IMG/VR virus record: IMGVR_UViG_3300044846_000945
Coordinates: 1-34,497 of that record
DNA length: 34,497 nucleotides
Source: a virus
Strand: one strand, 5' to 3'
Position numbers and translations under genes: made by a program. The notes under the pieces are model-generated. The model searched no databases and had not been told where the DNA came from. It worked only from the letters and a program-made list of their open reading frames with translations. Positions within the stretch are counted from its first letter, which is position 1, and each line of letters starts with the position of its first letter. Shown in pieces: positions 1,202-34,124 of this stretch.

Positions 1202-2437
1202 TTATACCCCAGAAATTTGAGCAAAGGAAACCGTTCCCCTACCAATACCATACTTATATGCAATAAGGTAGCCAATCGCATCGTTTAAGTGGTCAAAGCC
1301 AGCACTTTTATCCGGCTCACCGTTTTTAGCGTAAATTTGGCGCTCTAAGCACTCAATCAATGATGGGCATTTGTCAGGGTTTACAAAGAGCCTGCGCTCA
1401 CCATCTCGCAATATCATTTGGTTTACTGCCAGCACCCTGTCCTTGATGCTTGGGTTGCGGTTATGTGCCAGCACAGTGAAGCCAGCGGTTCGCAATAGTG
1501 TTATGTCTGACAAGCTTGCATTAACGCTCTTGGTGGCACTGCCGCTTGCATCTGGATAAATAAATATCTGATGCCCTGCATAGCGGTTGCGTATAATATC
1601 AATCATTTGTGGCGTATCACGCGCACCCGTTATCTCATCCACAAAATGCGGGACGCCATTACGCATGACACAAACTACTGCGCTCATGTTCATGACGTTG
1701 AAGTCCATGCCTATGTGTATAGGCTCACCAGCTACTGCCGTTTCAAAGGTCTGGTTAAGCTGCCTATCAAACTCTGCATAAATTGCGCCGCCAGTAAGGT
1801 TGACAAACTCACCATCTAAATATGCAGAAAGCAATGCGGGTGGATATGACGCCTGTAGGTTCTCAATGTATCCTTCAGGCAAATTGGCTGCGTTGTCTAT
1901 TGTTCGGGCCTTAAACAGCTTATAGCCAGCCCCGCCGTTCTTTACCCATCGGTCATAAACAAACCTAAAGCCTTCTGGTGTTGTTGCTACTGCAACAGTA
2001 TTGGGCAGCGTTCCCTTTTGACGATTACGGGCAATAACCTTGTTCCATAGGTCACGGGCCTTGTGAAGGGGCAGCGTGTCCAACTCATCCACCACGCTAT
2101 GCGCCACTTCGTAACCGACAATGCGCTCTGGGCGCTCCATTGTGCGGAAGATAATCTTTCCACGACCTGGAAATGATATGCAAGGCGAACCAGAACGCAC
2201 TATTTTGTGCGCGTAACCACGCCGCTCTAGCAATTCGGGGAACCGCTTAAATGCAATATCCTCTACCAGAGAATAGGTCGGCAGATAATAGGCAAGGTCG
2301 CAGTTAGGCTCTTGGATTTTAAGTGCCATTGTCCTTGCTATTGCAGCCGCCGTCTTCCCAGAACCAAAGCCGCCAACAAAGGCGGGGAATGGGTCAAGCG
2401 AAGTGGCGAAGGCTAATTGTGTTGGTGAAAGGGTCAC
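1202..2437 (-). CDS. terL: Terminase large subunit
   Basis: ATPase-nuclease motor that cuts and packages phage DNA. A Walker A motif GGFGSGKT lies near residues 22-29. A Walker B-like HSVVDELD comes around residue 115, with a coupling-type ATTPEG motif further on. The C-terminal RNase H-like nuclease shows acidic motifs in GMDFNVMNMS, YPDASG and DHLNDAIGYLI. Length (about 411 residues) is normal. I prefer the GTG at 2437, which overlaps the TAG of the small subunit by one base (TAGTG) and has GAG eight bases upstream; a TTG at 2443 in the same frame would add two residues. It lies in the operon terS-terL-portal. Confidence 0.93.
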   Translation of the reverse strand: MTLSPTQLAFATSLDPFPAFVGGFGSGKTAAAIARTMALKIQEPNCDLAYYLPTYSLVEDIAFKRFPELLERRGYAHKIVRSGSPCISFPGRGKIIFRTMERPERIVGYEVAHSVVDELDTLPLHKARDLWNKVIARNRQKGTLPNTVAVATTPEGFRFVYDRWVKNGGAGYKLFKARTIDNAANLPEGYIENLQASYPPALLSAYLDGEFVNLTGGAIYAEFDRQLNQTFETAVAGEPIHIGMDFNVMNMSAVVCVMRNGVPHFVDEITGARDTPQMIDIIRNRYAGHQIFIYPDASGSATKSVNASLSDITLLRTAGFTVLAHNRNPSIKDRVLAVNQMILRDGERRLFVNPDKCPSLIECLERQIYAKNGEPDKSAGFDHLNDAIGYLIAYKYGIGRGTVSFAQISGV

Positions 2438-2880
2438 TAACAAAACTCATGAATTGATATTGGCAATTCTTTGTTTGTTACCGTTGCGTTTTCGGTGGAC
2501 ACGCCAAACGCCAATCGCGCAATCTTTTGCGCCGTGTCTGCTACTGACGCAATTGACCTAAGTGTGGCCGCATCTGCCTTGCCGCTGTCCATCATCATTT
2601 GCGCCGCCTTAGCCCTCAAGGCACGGGCAAGCCTAATGTCCTCATCATTCCATTGTGCCAGTTGGACAGAGCGTTGCTCCTGCATTAAATCAAACGCGCT
2701 GTTCTGCACCTTCTCTGACGCCTGTTGCTTTTCCAGAGGCCAGTTGTTGCGCGATGATTGCTTGCGTATCGCCGTTTCGCTGACTTTATATTTTTTGGCC
2801 AGTTCTACGAACGTGACGCTATTAAACATATAGTCATATTTTAACGCGTCCCAATCAACCTTGCTCGTCATTGTCGTCAT
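2437..2880 (-). CDS. terS: Terminase small subunit
   Basis: DNA-recognition subunit that guides the large terminase to the packaging site. The 147-residue protein starts with a helix-turn-helix-like segment (FVELAKKYKVSETAIRKQSSRNNW, split around residues 24-47) followed by charged helices suited to oligomerisation. It is called mainly from that HTH plus its place directly ahead of terL. The ATG at 2880 overlaps ibrB by 26 bases; a second ATG at 2871 is equally possible and no strong ribosome binding site decides between them. Confidence 0.78.
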   Translation of the reverse strand: MTTMTSKVDWDALKYDYMFNSVTFVELAKKYKVSETAIRKQSSRNNWPLEKQQASEKVQNSAFDLMQEQRSVQLAQWNDEDIRLARALRAKAAQMMMDSGKADAATLRSIASVADTAQKIARLAFGVSTENATVTNKELPISIHEFC

Positions 2881-3523
2881 ACTCTTTTTTCAATTGAAGC
2901 TGGCGTTTCGTCACCCAAGCTTTTTGATATTCCGTGTTTGAGAACAGTTTGCTGAACCCAGTAATGTGCTTCAACCTTAGCAATTCATCCGGCTCCATGC
3001 CCAATTCATTGCATATGGCCTTATCTTCCCATCCGTTTTCCAGCATTGAGAATACCATATTTGACATACCTGTCACACTATGTTTTCCACGCGCCCTATT
3101 GTGACGCACCGTTGAGGCCATGCGGTCATTGATGTCTTTGTCAATCACAACAATGGGCAAACGCCCACAATTCCTCGCCAAAATGTCTGGATTGCTTTTG
3201 CAAGTGAAGTATCTGTGGAAGCCATCAACGATGATATATTTTTTTATCTCATCATCCCAAATTGTGACAACAGGCTGCGTATAGCCGTCATGCAAGATGG
3301 ATGTGTAAAGCAATCCCATCTCTGTCTTGGCAACGCTATTAGGGTTATAGTCGTTGGCCTGCACATCATTAATGTCCACCCATCGTATACGGTTTACAGG
3401 CTGCGTGTTGAGCGGGTGGCTTGCATCAATTAATGCCTTCAGTCCCTCTACCCAGTTTATTTTATCTGCTTCGGGCAGGGTGTTCATGTGGTCAATGACG
3501 CTCTGGCTTATGTTGTCAGTCAT
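2855..3523 (-). CDS. ibrB: IbrB-like ParB-domain protein
   Basis: A 222-residue protein with a ParB/sulfiredoxin-type domain. The core motif is VDGFHR at residues 99-104, followed by a basic RHNRARGKH at 140-148 and a helix-turn-helix-like stretch at about 165-186 (ICNELGMEPDELLRLK). Length, motif and direct linkage to a PP-loop/DUF3440 gene match IbrB. In Escherichia coli the IbrA/IbrB pair is known as an activator of prophage-borne immunoglobulin-binding (eib) genes; the biochemistry is unclear. Here the ATG overlaps the ibrA stop by four bases (ATGA), so the two are almost certainly made together. ParB folds of this class can hydrolyse nucleotides or DNA, so DNA handling is inferred, not shown. 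Confidence 0.8.
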   Translation of the reverse strand: MTDNISQSVIDHMNTLPEADKINWVEGLKALIDASHPLNTQPVNRIRWVDINDVQANDYNPNSVAKTEMGLLYTSILHDGYTQPVVTIWDDEIKKYIIVDGFHRYFTCKSNPDILARNCGRLPIVVIDKDINDRMASTVRHNRARGKHSVTGMSNMVFSMLENGWEDKAICNELGMEPDELLRLKHITGFSKLFSNTEYQKAWVTKRQLQLKKEYDDNDEQG

Positions 3524-4713
3524 TTTTGCAGTTCCTCAAGATATTGTGGCTTAATGTGCTTTAGCATTGCTTTGTCCCGCACCCTGTCACCAAGCTTGCC
3601 ACCCTTCCACTGCCTATAGGCAATAATTTGTGGCGTGTTTAAGAAGTTGCTAATCTTTACAAACTGATAGTCGTTCACCAGTATGCTTTTAATCTGCGCC
3701 TTATGCAGCACGTCAGCTTCGTGCATCTCATCATACAATATATCCATCTCTGCCCACTTTTTGCGGAACGCAATTTTGTGTTCTTCAATGGTTATCAGGT
3801 TCTCTGTTAGGTAGTCCCTATATTCCATCCAGCTTTTGAACATCGGTGGCAAAACGCTAATTGCCATTAGTTCCTCTTTTTGAATGTGAGAAGCCTGATT
3901 GATGCCCTTGGTTCTTTTCACCAGCGCGTTCCATGTGTCGTTTTCAATTTCCTGCAAAAAGAAAAGGCTGTGTATGGCAGTTTCATGGTTGAGGCTGGAA
4001 ACCCTCATGCGCTGCGGTGGTATGCCATAGCGGTAAAGTTCATCATATATCTTGCAGTATTCCCATCCATTATCGTGAATTGATTTCCACACGTCGGATA
4101 GCGACCAATCCCATATCGGATAAAATGTGTAATGGTGCTTGCTTTTGTTGAGTATCTTGCCCCACGTTATAGACTTATATGTTCGGTTGGTGGTCAGGCC
4201 AGCCAATCGGGTGGGACTTTCTTCAGCCCTTACGCCGGATACATAGCAAGCCTTTTTATCTGGATAATAATAATCCAGCACTGCCTTGAAAATGTCATTA
4301 GAACCAGATGACCACTCATGACATCCAAAAACATTTTCCTTGATTGAATTTGGCTCCTGCGGCCTCATCCACTCCTTGCCTTCTTCCCATGAATAAAGCC
4401 AAGGCTCATCTTGAGACAGGCTATTCGTAATCCTGATAGGCATTTGCAGCCAGATAGGCTCCACCCTTGGGTCTGCCATAGCATTACGCATATATTCAAT
4501 GACGTTGCGATATTCGCATTCTTGGTCAATGAATAGCATTTTAACGGGTAGCCTGCCCCGCTTTTCAGCGACGGCTAGGCATACTTGCATCGTGACGGTG
4601 CTATCTTTGCCACCAGAGTTGGCAATGATGATGTCGTCAAATTCATCAAATAGCTGCTCCATTCTTTCAAACGCCATATCCCAGACGTTTTTATTGGGCA
4701 GAAATATCTTCAT
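3520..4713 (-). CDS. ibrA: IbrA-like PAPS-reductase-family protein (DUF3440)
   Basis: A 397-residue PP-loop protein. The nucleotide-binding motif SGGKDS is at residues 33-38. The family adenylates or binds ATP/PAPS and includes PAPS reductase and DndC, the sulfur-activating enzyme of DNA phosphorothioation. The long region after the PP-loop domain, with IWDWSLSDVWK and RMRVSSLNHETAIHSL, is typical of the DUF3440/IbrA branch. It sits between the SET gene (4-base overlap) and ibrB (4-base overlap). No DndD, DndE, DndB or cysteine desulfurase gene is present in the window, so a complete phosphorothioation pathway is not encoded here. Its role may be regulatory, as for E. coli IbrA, or it may alter a nucleotide or RNA; the sequence does not decide. 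Confidence 0.85.
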   Translation of the reverse strand: MKIFLPNKNVWDMAFERMEQLFDEFDDIIIANSGGKDSTVTMQVCLAVAEKRGRLPVKMLFIDQECEYRNVIEYMRNAMADPRVEPIWLQMPIRITNSLSQDEPWLYSWEEGKEWMRPQEPNSIKENVFGCHEWSSGSNDIFKAVLDYYYPDKKACYVSGVRAEESPTRLAGLTTNRTYKSITWGKILNKSKHHYTFYPIWDWSLSDVWKSIHDNGWEYCKIYDELYRYGIPPQRMRVSSLNHETAIHSLFFLQEIENDTWNALVKRTKGINQASHIQKEELMAISVLPPMFKSWMEYRDYLTENLITIEEHKIAFRKKWAEMDILYDEMHEADVLHKAQIKSILVNDYQFVKISNFLNTPQIIAYRQWKGGKLGDRVRDKAMLKHIKPQYLEELQK

Positions 4714-5441
4714 TTATAAACCAATCTTGGGTCAGCTTTGTTGATTAATATCTGGTCTTGTGGCGCTTTGTCCCGCTCCATCACCCAGTATTTCCACTCT
4801 CCAGCGTAAAGATAATTATAAACGTATTTGCCCGTCATTTTGAACGTGTCTTGCGTTGCCGTCCTATTAATGAAGTCACACACCCAAACAAAATCGTCTT
4901 GGTTATCCCAATCAGCCTTTCGGGTATAATAATGAGGCATATAGGCCAAGGTCTTCGCAAAACGCCAATGCGCCTGCGATAGAAGGAACTGCGCCCTTTC
5001 CATTTCGGAAATAACGCTTGCATTTGAAATGAGCGCCTTCTTCTTGCCACCGCAAGCCATCGGCCCACAGTGACACATGAAGTCACGAAACAAAAATTGC
5101 TCTGTTTGCAGATAATCCATTGTTACCCACTCACCAGCTTCAATGTCCCTTAATGCCGTAAATTGCAGAAGCTTCATGTCAACGTGACAATTAGGCTCAC
5201 AGCGGTGCAAGACGCGGCCCATGAACCACGGGTCATGCAAATGCTTGTTGTCAGGCGTTGTAAGGCTGTGCAGCGTCATCTTGTCGGACAGGACACCAGA
5301 GAACCTAAAAAGCATTTCGCCCTTCTTAAAGGCTCTTAGGGTGGCTACACCTACGCCGCCGTCAAACTCTTTAATTTCAAAATCATGGGCGCTTGGCTCA
5401 TGGCTAAATGTTGGCACGATTTCATCGGGATAAAATCTCAT
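4710..5441 (-). CDS. SET-domain protein (putative protein lysine methyltransferase)
   Basis: A 243-residue protein whose first ~140 residues match the SET fold. GVGVATLRAFKKGEMLFRFSG (about residues 29-49, split here by length) resembles the SET N-terminal part. HRCEPNCHV at 79-87 stands at the NH-S-C-x-PN SAM-binding position. WVTMDY at 105-110 supplies the catalytic-type tyrosine, and C123-x-C125 with C130 is a post-SET-like zinc cluster. SET enzymes move methyl groups from S-adenosylmethionine to lysine. The remaining ~100 residues are rich in aromatic residues and not recognised. The canonical asparagine-histidine pair is changed (HRCEPN), so activity is not assured. It overlaps its neighbours by four bases on each side, next to a SAM decarboxylase-like gene. 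Confidence 0.75.
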   Translation of the reverse strand: MRFYPDEIVPTFSHEPSAHDFEIKEFDGGVGVATLRAFKKGEMLFRFSGVLSDKMTLHSLTTPDNKHLHDPWFMGRVLHRCEPNCHVDMKLLQFTALRDIEAGEWVTMDYLQTEQFLFRDFMCHCGPMACGGKKKALISNASVISEMERAQFLLSQAHWRFAKTLAYMPHYYTRKADWDNQDDFVWVCDFINRTATQDTFKMTGKYVYNYLYAGEWKYWVMERDKAPQDQILINKADPRLVYK

Positions 5442-5830
5442 TTGCGGAACACCTCCTCAAAGGAAATGTCAGTTGGGCCGAAGCAGTCTTTTACTGCGTC
5501 CAAAACCAAACCAGTTTCATATTCCTTGCAGGAAAAAACGTCCAGATATAGGTCACGGAATTTATCGTTGGTGTGGATTGTAATTGCGCTTGTCTCAATC
5601 AATTGCACCGCGCTTATTCCCTCTTCCTGCCCACCACCAAATCTGGCGATAAACGGCTCCCCATAGGCTACCATGTCAATGTCTTTCACTAGCTTTTTAA
5701 TGAACCTAGCAATGGCATCCATATCCAAAAGATGCTCGTTGCAGTGAACGGCGGTCAGCATAACGTGCTGTCCATAGTGCGGCACACCATCCCGAATGAT
5801 GCGCTTGTAGCTTTTAGTATCCTGTGACAT
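5438..5830 (-). CDS. speD: S-adenosylmethionine decarboxylase-like protein (SpeD family)
   Basis: A 130-residue protein of the small bacterial SpeD class, pyruvoyl enzymes that decarboxylate SAM for polyamine synthesis. Around the processing site it reads ETSAITIHT (residues 79-87). S81, H86 and C101 (in LDVFSC) have exactly the spacing of the pyruvoyl serine, processing histidine and catalytic cysteine of the Thermotoga enzyme (0, +5, +20). The residue before the serine is threonine rather than the usual glutamate, and alanine replaces the histidine after it, so the substrate could differ; some SpeD relatives are known to have become arginine or ornithine decarboxylases. The ATG at 5830 has GGAG at good spacing. 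It overlaps the ParB-like gene by 17 bases and the SET gene by four. Confidence 0.78.
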   Translation of the reverse strand: MSQDTKSYKRIIRDGVPHYGQHVMLTAVHCNEHLLDMDAIARFIKKLVKDIDMVAYGEPFIARFGGGQEEGISAVQLIETSAITIHTNDKFRDLYLDVFSCKEYETGLVLDAVKDCFGPTDISFEEVFRK

Positions 5831-6401
5831 TGAATGTCTCCGTGCAATATGGGCATATAACTTCTACGCCCTTTTCAGATTTATCGGCCTTCAAGCCTTC
5901 AATTTGCTTTCCCAAATCGACCGAAGCCTTGCCTACGTCATTTTCCGTTACTGACCGTCCATCATAACTTGGATTGTAAACTGGCTCATACCCGTCATTT
6001 AGAATGTCATCTAATTCAGCACTGGCAAAGCCGATGCTGTTCAAATCAAAATCTATGTTCGCCAATGCCAACAGTTGCTGCGAAAGGACTGCATCATCCC
6101 AATCTGCATTTAAGGCAATTTTGTTGTCAGCAATGACCAGCGCCTTTTGCTGCGCCTCACTCAAGCCACTTAGGACAATAACTGGGACATCCATTATTCC
6201 CAATGTCTTAGCAGCTTGAAGTCTGCCATGCCCTGCAATCACCGTGTTGGTGTCGCTAATTAATATCGGATTTGTCCAGCCAAATTCCTTTATGCTGGCC
6301 GCAATCTGACCTATTTGCTCACTGCTATGTGTCCGGCTGTTAGCTGCATACGGGATTAAATCCGTAACGCTGCGCTGTTCAATCTTTGGTGCTTCAATCA
6401 T
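5814..6401 (-). CDS. ParB N-terminal domain protein with C-terminal zinc-knuckle motif
   Basis: A 195-residue protein. Residues 8-95 match the ParB nuclease-like domain seen in many phages: LIPYAANSRTHS, then the active-site type motif GHGR at 57-60 and VIADNKIAL. The tail contains C183-P-Y-C186 followed by ETFNV, half of a zinc ribbon. In phages this domain is usually fused to or next to an adenine-specific DNA methyltransferase, and none is present here. AGAGG nine to ten bases before the ATG supports the start. It heads the cassette that runs through SpeD-like, SET, IbrA, IbrB and terminase. Function is inferred as DNA binding or nucleotide hydrolysis. Confidence 0.78.
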   Translation of the reverse strand: MIEAPKIEQRSVTDLIPYAANSRTHSSEQIGQIAASIKEFGWTNPILISDTNTVIAGHGRLQAAKTLGIMDVPVIVLSGLSEAQQKALVIADNKIALNADWDDAVLSQQLLALANIDFDLNSIGFASAELDDILNDGYEPVYNPSYDGRSVTENDVGKASVDLGKQIEGLKADKSEKGVEVICPYCTETFNVTGY

Positions 6402-20568: not shown

Positions 20569-22443
20569 TTAGAAGTTATATGTTGAAGCGATGTCGTTAG
20601 CTGCGGCAGTAGGTAGCGTGGATGGATTAGGGTATATAGTGCCAAAGCCAGTTGCGCTATTAAAAGGGTAAGCGCGAATAAAAGGCGAACCAACATCACC
20701 TACCGCTAAAGTGTCTCCATTTGGTGAAAAGCAAGGTGAGTATGAACCAGTTGGAAGCGTTGCGGGGTTGGAGTATTTTGTGCCGAAACCAGCACCGCTC
20801 CAAGGGTAAGCAGTCACCGCAGGAGAGCCGCCATTTGTTACTGCTATAGCATCGCCCAATGGTGAAAACGCTACACCAAAGCCGGTTGATACTGGCAAAG
20901 TTGCAGGGTTAGCAAACTTAGTGCCAAAGCCTGAAGCAGACCAAGCATAGACTGTTACAAACGGCGTGGTTGAGTGTGCCATTGCAACGGCGTCACCCGC
21001 AGGACTAAAGGCAATGTTTTTTGGCGTCCCAGTTTGCGGGCCATTAGCAGGCAGAGTTGCTGGATTGGCGAATTTAGTGCCAAACCCTGAAGCACTTGTC
21101 CAAGCGTAAGCATTTATAAATGGTGAGTTGCTGTTAGATACAGCGACAGCAGTATCTAAAGGGTGGAAGGCTACCGCACGGGTTGCGCTAAAAGTAGCTG
21201 TTGCTGGGTTGCTGTATTTAGTGCCAAATCCAGTATTGCTATCCCATCGCCAAGCTTCAACGGTAGGTGTGAAGCTGCCGTTTACCGCTGCAATAGCATT
21301 TGATTGAGAGGAAAAAGTGGCGCAGGCTAAAGCGTTAGCGGGGGGTGATGCTGCATTTGCGTATCTAGTGCCATACCCATTTCCGCTCCATCTGTAGACA
21401 TCTAAGAAAGGGCTTGAATTACTTGCAAAAACTACCGCGTCCCCGCTAGGTGCGAAATCAATAGATAATGCGTTGCCGCTTATTGTGGTAACTGGGTTAG
21501 CATACCTAGTCCCAAAGCCAATTCCGCTGGTAAAAGGATAAGTATCTTGGAAAATGCCAGCATCAGCGTGTGATATAGCAAACACATACGGCGCAATAGG
21601 CACATCTTGAGTTAGATAGTTAGCCATCCATTTCGTCGCGGTGACCTTGATAGCCATTAACGTGTTATTAGGTGATACAGGCGCAGTGCCTGTCAGACCG
21701 GAGCCAAGAACCAACGTATCGCTATTAATCGCTACATTAACCGATGTGCCGCCGTTTTCCACTGTAAACAGAACCACCGTGCCAATTGAGAAAGGCACAC
21801 TGGCATTAGATGGAATTGTGTATATACGCGAGACACCATCAGACGCAGGATGGAATATCTGCTTGCCAGCATCGCCAATTACTAATGTGTAGTTGGCTGA
21901 TTGACTATTCTGCGGATAATTGACCGCGCTTGATGGCGGTGCGCTAGATACCCATGTTGTGCCGTCGCTGGTGAGCAAGTTGCCAGCAGTGCTTGGTGCT
22001 GGCCCAGCTTTTATGAGTTTGCCAGTTGTGCCATCATAAAGTGCAACGCCATTTGCAGTTGCGCTAGAAGGCCCAGTAACATCGCCATCATTGATGACCA
22101 GCCAGTTTGCGCCATCGACGGGAGTTACGCCTGTGTTGACTGTCTTAGCGACAAAACGGCGTCCAGAATAGCTAACGCTCTGACCAATTTGGTAAGTTGT
22201 TCCTGCGTTGTAATCGCCTTGATAGTTAGCAGCACCCGCAGCAATCGACGCAGAGGCGGCAGCAATCGCAGCGTCCGCATCAACGGCTGTTGCAAGGCCA
22301 TCCAAATAACTGGCTTGAGCATTAGCGTCAGTCGCAAATTCAGGCAGTGCCGCAACAAACGCATCAGCTTCAATCGCAAAATTGGTCGGGTCAGTTGACC
22401 GCGATGGTGGTGTGGGCAATGGCGTGATAGTTGGCGCTGGCAT
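20569..22443 (-). CDS. Tail fibre/receptor-binding protein with seven-bladed beta-propeller
   Basis: 624 residues. The N-terminus carries a helical Ala-rich attachment segment. Residues ~95-140 (YNAGTTYQIGQSVSYSGRRF...NWLVIND) resemble a carbohydrate-binding 5/12-type module. The C-terminal ~330 residues contain seven copies of a blade signature GFGTKYANP (variants GFGTRYANP, GYGTRYANA, GFGTKFANP, GFGTIYPNP), each followed by FSPxGDAxAV, a SPxxxAYxWS strand and the next GFGT. This WD40/NHL-like pattern predicts one closed seven-bladed ring, likely for host binding. The adjacent fibre-assembly gene supports the call. Confidence 0.8.
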   Translation of the reverse strand: MPAPTITPLPTPPSRSTDPTNFAIEADAFVAALPEFATDANAQASYLDGLATAVDADAAIAAASASIAAGAANYQGDYNAGTTYQIGQSVSYSGRRFVAKTVNTGVTPVDGANWLVINDGDVTGPSSATANGVALYDGTTGKLIKAGPAPSTAGNLLTSDGTTWVSSAPPSSAVNYPQNSQSANYTLVIGDAGKQIFHPASDGVSRIYTIPSNASVPFSIGTVVLFTVENGGTSVNVAINSDTLVLGSGLTGTAPVSPNNTLMAIKVTATKWMANYLTQDVPIAPYVFAISHADAGIFQDTYPFTSGIGFGTRYANPVTTISGNALSIDFAPSGDAVVFASNSSPFLDVYRWSGNGYGTRYANAASPPANALACATFSSQSNAIAAVNGSFTPTVEAWRWDSNTGFGTKYSNPATATFSATRAVAFHPLDTAVAVSNSNSPFINAYAWTSASGFGTKFANPATLPANGPQTGTPKNIAFSPAGDAVAMAHSTTPFVTVYAWSASGFGTKFANPATLPVSTGFGVAFSPLGDAIAVTNGGSPAVTAYPWSGAGFGTKYSNPATLPTGSYSPCFSPNGDTLAVGDVGSPFIRAYPFNSATGFGTIYPNPSTLPTAAANDIASTYNF

Positions 22444-32073: not shown

Positions 32074-33099
32074 CTATAGGCGAGATAACTGTTCTAACGT
32101 GAGCGGGTTGCCGCGTTGGTCTAATAACTGCGACAACGTAATCTTTCCAGAGCGCCATAATTGGGCTTTGCCCTTGCCGAGCATCTTGTCCGCAAATGAC
32201 GCTGGCTTGTTCTTTAGAAACTGGTCAAATGATAAATCCGCCGCAACTTGCCCATCCATGCTGGCACGGGTAGTTTGCGATATTTCCTTCGCGGCTGCTT
32301 CGCCCCGTATCTCGGCAAATGACTTTGTAATAGGCACGAAGCTTGAGCGACACGCCCAATGAGCGGGTGGCCCACCATCCCAAGGTATAGAGTGGCCGAT
32401 TGGCTTGAATTTAGGGAACGTCCATGTTTTGCCTGCACGGGCCATGCAAATGTTGCTAGTGCGGCTATCAAGGGTTGAAACCCATTGAACGGCCTTGATG
32501 ATGTCTTGGTTTTCCATCAAGCCAGCCATCCGCGCCTCATTCGCAATAGTTTGAACGCCCGTGCGTGTAATTGCCATTGCATCGCGCCGTGCCTTGGCAA
32601 GCGCCTGTGGGCCTTTGTCCGAACCGTTGCCAACAATGGCCCTAGCTATTTCTCTGTTTGTCTGCCCAAGCGTTACGCCGTTCTTAATGGCGCGTTCAAT
32701 GTCAAACCTTGCTGATTGGTTCAAGCGGCTAAACCAGTCCCGAATTGTTGCACCTTGTATAAGCGCCGACTTAGCGATTGTATCGACGACAGAGGCGGGT
32801 GGTATCACGGTATCTATGCCGATAGATACAAACGCACTTTGCAGGAATGATGCTTCGGCAGCGGCTAACTTAGATAGGTCAGGCGTTTGCAGCGACATAA
32901 TCGCCTTTAGTTCCTCAATCGCCTTGGTTAAACGCTTGCCCTTATATGTAGTAAGTTCATCGCCCCTCAATGCCTTTTCGATTTCAGCGGCTATTGCATC
33001 CAGTTGCTTATTGATGGCTGCATCCTGCCCACCGATAATGCGCTGCAAAAGCAGTTGCCGAATTATGATTAGGTCATGAAGTTGGTCGGATACGGTCAA
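32074..33099 (-). CDS. MuF-type head morphogenesis protein (SPP1 gp7-like)
   Basis: 341 residues. The C-terminal half has the MuF signature: AITRTGVQTIANEARM, WVSTLDSRTSNICMARAGKT, then IPWDGGPPAHWACRSSFVP. These include the C-x-x-x-x-G and H-W-x-C-R elements of the family. Such proteins bind the portal and are injected with or bound to DNA. The N-terminal half is helical. ATGA overlap with the upstream collagen-like gene; the order portal, fibre, MuF is a common minor-head arrangement. Confidence 0.87.
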   Translation of the reverse strand: MTVSDQLHDLIIIRQLLLQRIIGGQDAAINKQLDAIAAEIEKALRGDELTTYKGKRLTKAIEELKAIMSLQTPDLSKLAAAEASFLQSAFVSIGIDTVIPPASVVDTIAKSALIQGATIRDWFSRLNQSARFDIERAIKNGVTLGQTNREIARAIVGNGSDKGPQALAKARRDAMAITRTGVQTIANEARMAGLMENQDIIKAVQWVSTLDSRTSNICMARAGKTWTFPKFKPIGHSIPWDGGPPAHWACRSSFVPITKSFAEIRGEAAAKEISQTTRASMDGQVAADLSFDQFLKNKPASFADKMLGKGKAQLWRSGKITLSQLLDQRGNPLTLEQLSRL

Positions 33100-34124
33100 G
33101 GCGCAACTTTATTGACTGTTAGAATTATGGATGGTGTAACTGGTCTAACGGGTGCGGTTCGCGCTGGCAATCCTGCAATGTAAACCAATGCGCTAGGCGC
33201 AGACCACATTAACCGGAAGTATTCGTTTTTCTCAACCCGATAATAAAAATTCCATGCGGCAACAGCAGCGCCATTATAACTACCATGCTTTTTCGGCACA
33301 GTAATATCCGTGCAGCTATCAGGCTCCGCTACGCCATCGCGTGCAAGCCAGATGCTCACGTCATGCTCTTGGCTGTCAGAATTAAGCAACTGTGCGCTGA
33401 ATTGGATGTTATACAATCCACTTTCATTGAACACTACGCGCACATTATCTTCAATCGTTATGCCATAGTTTTCTAGAATTGTGTCAAATTCCATCGCCGT
33501 TGCAGTGTTTGCAGCGTGAGTTTGCGTTTGCAAGTCAACGGCGGATAGATAAACAGGCTTAGGAGTGCCACCACCAAAAGCAGCGGCTGTCCTAACCTTG
33601 GCAATAGGTAGTTCAATCTGAAACTCTTGCCCGTCAGTCAGGGTTATCCAGAAAGATGTTTCGTCACGCTGTTCCACCAATGCAATGCCGACACCATCAG
33701 CGCCATTGGAACCATTGCTACCATTACGGCCATCAATGCCATTGCGGCCATCGTTACCATTAGCACCGTCAGCACCATCTCTACCGTCGCGGCCACGCAA
33801 TGTATCACGGTTGATTTCAAACCAGATGTTGACCGCAAGCTGGATTTCCTCGTCTGTTGGTGGACGACCTTGTGGCCCTTGCTCTCCGTCTTTGCCGTCA
33901 ATGCCGTTCTCTGGCTGCGTGATGTTGTCTTGTAGCCAAGCGACAGCAACAGCTTTGATTTCTTCGTCAGTAACAGGAGGTGCATCTTTTCCAGCCTCAC
34001 CTTGTGGCCCAGTTTCACCTTGTGGCCCCGCTATCAATGTGCGTGACGCAGCGTCATTTACGCGTTGATTTAACGCAGCTACCGCCTCAACTAGCGAGGC
34101 GATGATTTCCTCGCTCACAGCCAT
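33096..34124 (-). CDS. Collagen-like fibre protein with C1q/TNF-like C-terminal domain
   Basis: 342 residues. A coiled-coil start (1-28) is followed by Gly-X-Y runs at 33-47, 74-88 and eleven triplets at 111-143 (GRDGRDGADGANGNDGRNG). Between them lie two related helical modules, PPVTDEEIKAVAVAWLQDN and RPPTDEEIQLAVNIWFEIN. The last ~150 residues have strands of a C1q/TNF-like trimeric jelly roll (YNIQFSAQLLNSDSQEHDVS, YFRLMWSAPSALVY). Predicts a trimeric fibre, probably on the head or neck given its place between portal and MuF genes. No ribosome binding site doubt at ATG 34124. Confidence 0.8.
   Translation of the reverse strand: MAVSEEIIASLVEAVAALNQRVNDAASRTLIAGPQGETGPQGEAGKDAPPVTDEEIKAVAVAWLQDNITQPENGIDGKDGEQGPQGRPPTDEEIQLAVNIWFEINRDTLRGRDGRDGADGANGNDGRNGIDGRNGSNGSNGADGVGIALVEQRDETSFWITLTDGQEFQIELPIAKVRTAAAFGGGTPKPVYLSAVDLQTQTHAANTATAMEFDTILENYGITIEDNVRVVFNESGLYNIQFSAQLLNSDSQEHDVSIWLARDGVAEPDSCTDITVPKKHGSYNGAAVAAWNFYYRVEKNEYFRLMWSAPSALVYIAGLPARTAPVRPVTPSIILTVNKVAP

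Follow-up and report, generated by a model that had tools for sequence, protein, structure and literature searches.

A terminase-linked phage gene cassette as a form of a probable modular tailoring system, proposed to act on phage DNA

Introduction

The virus record IMGVR_UViG_3300044846_000945, analysed here at its full length of 34,497 bases and called the window below, carries five genes on the minus strand that overlap successively by 17, 4, 4 and 4 bases and are followed by the terminase genes terS and terL. They encode a lone ParB-domain protein (ParB1), a relative of the S-adenosylmethionine (SAM) decarboxylase SpeD, a SET-domain protein, the PP-loop protein IbrA and the ParB-fold protein IbrB. 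What do these five proteins do together, and why beside the packaging genes? The original prediction, made from the sequence alone, held that they may form one system, and listed modification, removal of SAM and regulation of late transcription as its possible functions. Here we follow up this prediction with searches for relatives, comparison of gene neighbourhoods and structure models.

Results

We searched IMG/VR with the window SET and IbrA proteins as seeds; its contigs are partial, and the locus counts given here depend on the seeds and on the removal of near-copies. The window 'SET' gene was found to carry a second conserved domain of about 90 amino acids, which is free-standing in most relatives and which we named FAK after its FAKTMP motif. 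Among the IbrA relatives (80 loci) the gene order was ParB1, FAK, variable genes, IbrA, IbrB and terS/terL, or, in an alternative arrangement, ParB1 lay downstream of IbrB. A core of ParB1, FAK, IbrA and IbrB adjoins the terminase genes at about 100 distinct IbrA loci. An independent search seeded with FAK returned 78 new loci, 49 of which were distinct once near-copies had been removed, and within 4 kb of FAK these distinct loci encode IbrA (47/49), ParB1 (46/49) and IbrB (44/49). In contrast to the 47 of 49 FAK loci, IbrA stood beside free SpeD at none of 31 distinct loci (Fisher p 3.7e-20). The five-gene set originally taken for the system thus has to give way to this four-part core, with SpeD and SET among many exchangeable inserts. 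It is well supported that the window cassette is one tailoring unit, a version of a widespread modular system and not the system itself.

The variable slot between FAK and IbrA holds glycosyltransferase-, DNA-methyltransferase-, GNAT- and dioxygenase-like genes, class I methyltransferases, the glycosyltransferase-like family c5, SpeD and SET, and more than 25 combinations were counted among 107 distinct IbrA loci. Insert GT_c0 matched a PHROG glucosyltransferase (2e-8), MTase_c1 a DNA methyltransferase (N6_N4_Mtase, 1.3e-9) and c4 a GNAT (3.7e-5); the class I methyltransferases matched at 3.8e-10, and the HxD...H motif is invariant in the dioxygenase-like family c3. On the IbrA tree the SET and SpeD type occupies one clade (together with the truncated L087) nested among the dioxygenase, methyltransferase and GNAT types, and the distribution of SpeD requires several gains or losses. 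Middle gene sets swap freely between nearly identical phages. Indeed, loci L115 and L127, with IbrA proteins 99.5% identical, have two methyltransferases and a glycosyltransferase plus a dioxygenase, respectively; in DNA the two loci agree at 89% of bases as far as the 3' part of FAK, show no detected similarity across the middle, and return to 98% identity 10 bases upstream of IbrA, continuing through terL. Exchanges of the same kind separate L121 from L125 and L102 from L118. A related operon spans the genome ends of a cultured phage, Microbacterium phage Hendrix: gp154 is GT_c0-like, gp155 is annotated as a glucosyltransferase, gp156 joins FAK to a class I methyltransferase, gp157 is an N-acyltransferase (GNAT) and gp158 is IbrA, while gp1 is IbrB, gp2 and gp3 are ParB proteins, gp4 (annotated Rnase E) has the terS position and gp5 is the terminase large subunit. 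In one operon with a SpeD-FAK fusion, a class I methyltransferase whose gene separates IbrA from IbrB was considered as a second methionine S-methyltransferase and rejected, as it matched generic methyltransferases only.

Within this wider system, the five genes of the window are almost certainly one functional unit, because their order is conserved, they are under purifying selection and they are transferred together. An identical cassette was found at L002, the complete five-gene order in divergent form at L003/L004, L085 and L091, and a shortened copy at L087. The L003/L004 proteins are 46-52% (ParB, SpeD, SET-FAK) or 64-67% (IbrA, IbrB) identical in amino acids to those of the window, and their cassette likewise precedes terS/terL, although these terminases matched those of the window only via an iterated profile. 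Between L003 and L004 the ratio of non-synonymous to synonymous substitution (dN/dS) was 0.05 for ParB, 0.13 for SpeD, 0.054 for SET-FAK, 0.045 for IbrA and 0.065 for IbrB; SpeD and SET are, therefore, not decaying. Looked at for scattered genes and for broken copies of SpeD and SET, the relatives left the predicted unit standing.

The FAK domain had no match in Pfam or PHROG. Its AlphaFold model is confident (predicted local distance difference test score 90.6) and matched one viral model, A0A516LRX9 (4e-7). In addition to SET, its partner in the window, FAK is fused to SpeD (L094, L217, L227, L238) and to methyltransferases (L110, L120 and phage Hendrix). The residues after its YW pair track the insert type: a dioxygenase accompanies all 9 domains with YWVMD and 1 of the 41 with YWTMG, and YWVME marks the SET/SpeD type. 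Because these residues follow the insert, FAK likely contacts the donor or the product of the modification proposed below. FAK-like domains also occur without IbrA in bacterial chromosomes (L174, L175, L180, L182-L185, L188), of Bacteroidales, Flavobacterium, Polaribacter and others. By eye, some of these genes adjoin ADP-ribosylglycohydrolase-like or DUF262-like genes; no functional clue was obtained from the chromosomal genes.

The SET domain most resembles BurB, the SET-domain methionine S-methyltransferase of Burkholderia thailandensis, which yields S-methylmethionine (PDB 9l4t, 9l4v; PMC12542666). BurB was the best match of a profile search (5.2e-28; the runner-up, a histone methyltransferase, reached 1.9e-6) and of a structure search (Foldseek 1.2e-7 against 1.2e-4; VIA Z 10.2), and thus closer than the lysine SET methyltransferases in both sequence and structure. 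BurB holds methionine by main-chain contacts and has Tyr124 in its active site (PMC12542666); window residues Y110, H79 and H58 align with its Tyr124, His93 and His72 and are retained in all relatives aligned. In the Burkholderia pathway, S-methylmethionine is then decarboxylated to dimethylsulphoniopropionate (DMSP)-amine. Unlike BurB, the phage SET domain has FAK as its fusion partner, and its companion is a pyruvoyl SpeD rather than the Burkholderia decarboxylase BurI. Other BurB-type SET genes have comparable surroundings: that of Eleftheria terrae (43% identical) lies in a polyketide cluster, beside genes for an aminotransferase and an aldehyde dehydrogenase, and that of Sphingomonas paeninsulae overlaps the gene for a pyridoxal-phosphate amino-acid decarboxylase. 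On this homology, the window SET domain probably makes S-methylmethionine.

The window SpeD has the fold family and the pyruvoyl-forming Ser, His and Cys (S81, H86 and C101) of class 1b SpeD/AdoMetDC and of the phage ornithine and arginine decarboxylases derived from them (PMC9992855), and its AdoMet_dc domain scored 61.8 against a cut-off of 25 bits. It failed, however, the test for a bona fide SpeD (NCBIfam equivalog SAM_DCase_Bsu, 37 against a cut-off of 75.65 bits), and in the alignment it departs from classical SpeD in the motif around the catalytic residues. Residues differ also in what we take, from the Thermotoga enzyme, to be the adenosine pocket. SpeDs linked to SET form a clade of their own (support 97/98), with the motifs RFGxGxExG[ILV]S and H[ST]ND in 7 of 7 proteins against none of 67 other SpeDs, and the SpeDs of operons without SET belong to other subfamilies. 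Phage homologues of SpeD have changed substrate, and many of them decarboxylate ornithine or arginine (PMC9992855). The idea that SpeD and SET are linked by a common use of SAM is thus probably wrong for SpeD, given the sub-threshold score, the substrate changes in phages and the BurB-like nature of its SET partner. From its sequence, the chances seem even that the window enzyme acts on S-methylmethionine. A plain supply of spermidine was set aside, because most relatives are without SpeD and SET and no spermidine synthase family was found in the cassette or the other window genes scanned.

The SET and SpeD genes move together, and they adjoin PP-loop ATP pyrophosphatases, of different families, in two settings. 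The second setting, a separate phage lineage, is provided by plasmid p7 of Rhizobium bangladeshense (NZ_CP071625; L271/L274) and by L275, a virus contig of 82 kb, both of which encode a PP-loop protein of the asparagine-synthase type, a BurB-like SET protein and a SpeD side by side; both SpeDs fall within the SET-linked clade, and neither IbrA nor FAK was detected in the stretches examined. This arrangement fits the synthesis of an amine followed by PP-loop adenylation of an acceptor and coupling. A general association between free SpeD and PP-loop genes proved weak, with 10 positive loci out of 79; these share one motif and apparently stem from a single lineage. Plasmid p7, which is phage-like and 109 kb long, and L275 also have in common a 363-residue protein and two ParB proteins. 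On the 104-kb virus contig L277 (3251-7122), a SpeD shares its neighbourhood with three proteins that have PP-loop motifs, one of them with weak similarity to QueC, and with a Rieske protein; this may be a further amine-coupling cassette.

IbrA scored above the Pfam cut-offs for both PAPS_reduct (50.3 against 22.5 bits) and DUF3440 (36.4 against 25 bits). Its partner IbrB, the next gene with a 4-base overlap, matched Pfam ParB_N below threshold and was assigned through PHROG 2159. The window pair is clearly homologous to IbrA/IbrB of E. coli ECOR-9 and of many phages, in which a PAPS-reductase-like DUF3440 protein likewise stands beside a ParB-fold partner, and whose annotation in E. coli is that of co-activators for prophage genes (PMC4490671); the window pair differs in that its operon is larger, lies beside terminase and also includes ParB1, FAK and exchangeable enzymes. 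Records of cultured phages contained IbrA in 215 cases and IbrB in 218, and most of the pairs examined were without FAK. In phages of Fusobacterium, Streptococcus and Flavobacterium (L166, L170, L171), IbrA/IbrB adjoin a helicase-like gene and not FAK, a second type of IbrA/IbrB neighbourhood. The C-terminus of ParB1 has a conserved CPxC, half a zinc ribbon, seen also in L003/L004 and in both tandem ParB proteins of Hendrix.

All coordinates and overlaps of the five genes and their run into terS/terL were reproduced (Table 1), terS starting at 2880, within IbrB and overlapping it by 26 bases, and terL following with its start at 2443. The family assignments (ParB_N, AdoMet_dc, SET, PAPS_reduct with DUF3440, and IbrB) also hold. 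The operon is situated among the head and packaging genes of the window. Elsewhere in the window, a large minus-strand open reading frame among the tail genes (20569-22443) has repeated GFGTKYSNPATLP-like units and a beta-propeller- or fibre-like look, and an open reading frame with collagen-like G-x-y repeats (33096-34124) lies close to the right end of the record.

Table 1. Genes and domains of the cassette and the adjoining terminase genes in the window
Feature	Position	Strand	Length	Description and matches
ParB1	5814..6401	-	195 aa	lone ParB_N protein, core component; Pfam ParB_N 1.7e-6; PHROG 620 1.8e-55
SpeD-like pyruvoyl amino-acid decarboxylase (predicted)	5438..5830	-	130 aa	Pfam AdoMet_dc 9.3e-17
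SET-FAK fusion protein	4710..5441	-	243 aa	Pfam SET 1.7e-8
BurB-like SET domain	5037..5441	-	aa 1-135	predicted methionine (thioether) S-methyltransferase; phmmer to BurB 2.6e-26
FAK domain	4713..5015	-	aa 143-243	core domain; motifs W.FAKTMP..PH.Y ... YKYW.M ... INRA
IbrA	3520..4713	-		PP-loop ATP pyrophosphatase family (PAPS reductase/DndC superfamily) with DUF3440; SGGKDS motif; Pfam PAPS_reduct 3.6e-13, DUF3440 6e-9; PHROG 2302 1.3e-79
IbrB	2855..3523	-		ParB-fold partner of IbrA; DGFHR motif; PHROG 2159 3.9e-72
terS	2437..2880	-		terminase small subunit, begins within IbrB; PHROG 1206 1.3e-11
terL	1202..2443	-		terminase large subunit; Terminase_6N 1.5e-17, Terminase_6C 6.4e-17

Discussion

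The above results make it likely that the cassette is a tailoring or modification system. Of the functions originally listed, modification fits best, while removal of SAM is disfavoured, since most relatives are without SpeD and SET yet keep the rest. DNA is, on balance, the probable target, because of the ParB folds, the relationship of IbrA to DndC, the DNA-methylase-like alternates in the slot, the rapid turnover of inserts and the proximity to terminase.

In the window, the BurB-like SET domain would use SAM to convert methionine into S-methylmethionine, and the SpeD-like enzyme would decarboxylate this to 3-(dimethylsulphonio)propylamine. IbrA, with IbrB and ParB1 holding the DNA, would then adenylate a position in it, probably a base carbonyl, for attack by the amine, in analogy to the PP-loop enzyme TilS, which acts on tRNA with lysine. 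FAK may be a donor-specific adaptor or transfer domain, presenting or recognising the donor, and packaging would come immediately after the DNA is marked. Other phages would instead glycosylate, acetylate, methylate or oxidise the donor or product. The outcome would be virion DNA bearing a variable bulky mark and resistant to host nucleases. We prefer this explanation as a whole (a modular tailoring system linked to packaging, with phage DNA as its most likely target and the chemistry proposed for the window), though tentatively and with somewhat less than even confidence. Coupling of the amine by IbrA, which is argued by analogy, is a possibility of slightly lower standing. We are doubtful of the strictest form, a plug-in DNA-modification platform in which SET and the decarboxylase make dimethylsulphoniopropylamine and the PP-loop enzyme attaches it, giving a permanently charged sulphonium base. 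We know of no such base from any nucleic acid.

Several observations weigh against the preferred explanation. The substrate of SET is assigned by homology at about 40% identity, and the BurB cofactor contacts R133 and H138 are present in the window but not in L003, L085 and L091. Among free-standing SpeDs, those nearest to the window's are similar to the phage clade containing ornithine decarboxylases, which makes putrescine a possible product. IbrA scored 19.3 bits against a cut-off of 290.4 for the DndC equivalog, and no match to the TilS or TiaS families was found for it (TilS: Pfam and NCBIfam, E up to 0.1); the coupling step, thus, rests on membership of the PP-loop superfamily. FAK had no significant match among solved structures (best Foldseek PDB E 0.43; VIA Z <=3.9). 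In addition, the glycosyltransferase, dioxygenase and GNAT genes could also act on a protein or a surface molecule.

The alternative that survives best keeps modular DNA modification, with SpeD as an ornithine or arginine decarboxylase supplying putrescine or agmatine, and with SET methylating the donor or another thioether, to give a polyamine-type mark. Agmatine and putrescine are known donors in nucleic-acid modification (agmatidine, putrescinylthymine). The window SpeD is also about 50% identical to free-standing phage SpeDs whose best match is phiN3, a true SpeD, the one placed in the ornithine decarboxylase clade (PMC9992855). The SET-linked SpeDs, however, are without the QLIETSN motif of the free group, and their own motifs point to a substrate change associated with SET. 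We consider this alternative unlikely.

Less probable again is modification of a virion or host protein, with SET as a protein lysine methyltransferase and the glycosyltransferase, GNAT and methyltransferase genes likewise acting on protein and expressed with the late genes. Classical SET proteins do methylate lysines, and the operon is located in the head and packaging region; but this SET domain is nearest to a small-molecule S-methyltransferase, the same slot is taken by DNA-methyltransferase-like genes, the ParB and DndC-like partners suggest DNA, and no cassette gene resembles a protein-target recogniser.

That IbrA, IbrB and ParB regulate late transcription while SpeD and SET are passenger metabolic genes would agree with the co-activator annotation of IbrA/IbrB (PMC4490671) and with free SpeD being common among phage metabolic genes (PMC9992855). 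Passengers, however, would not be expected to be fused to a core domain (SET-FAK, SpeD-FAK, methyltransferase-FAK), to be restricted to one slot or to covary with a motif of FAK, and we regard this explanation as improbable.

Phosphorothioation of the DNA backbone is more improbable still. Dnd/Ssp systems, too, combine a PP-loop ATP pyrophosphatase with a ParB-superfamily partner, IbrA being a relative of DndC (PADLOC DndC, 1.4e-7) and IbrB belonging, like DndB, to the ParB superfamily (PMC10853773). The cassette, however, is without DndD, DndE and a cysteine desulphurase, IbrA falls far below the DndC cut-off, and a sulphur backbone leaves the differing accessory enzymes (glycosyltransferase, GNAT, SpeD and SET) unexplained. 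Finally, depletion of SAM by SET and SpeD, blunting SAM-dependent host restriction and methylation, recalls the known phage SAM-degrading enzymes and the textbook use of SAM by both families, but is highly improbable, as most relatives have the operon with other SAM-using or unrelated enzymes in their stead, packaging-time expression comes too late for protecting incoming DNA, and the window SpeD is not a typical SAM decarboxylase.

Base modification of this kind in phages has a precedent in prediction. The survey of Iyer et al. of 2013 (NAR 41:7635) reportedly predicted lysidine-like pyrimidines and marks derived from modified SAM in phages; the window cassette would fit such marks, and the kind was, therefore, anticipated. 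In the literature searched we found no paper connecting DUF3440/ParB with modification of phage DNA, nor any mention of four features identified here: FAK, the assignment of the SET domain to BurB, the pairing of SET with SpeD and the exchange of cassettes.

A puzzling five-gene cluster thus becomes a testable general system, with a fixed core beside terminase and an exchange slot. The analysis defines a conserved domain, FAK, that had no family model, predicts a viral role for a BurB-type SET enzyme and places the IbrA/IbrB pair, long unexplained, in a functional context. In Microbacterium phage Hendrix it points to a cultured phage whose virion DNA is open to direct analysis. Whole sets of modifying enzymes are exchanged among near-identical phages, as expected in an arms race with host nucleases, and, if the proposal is true, the modification would help phage DNA escape bacterial defences.

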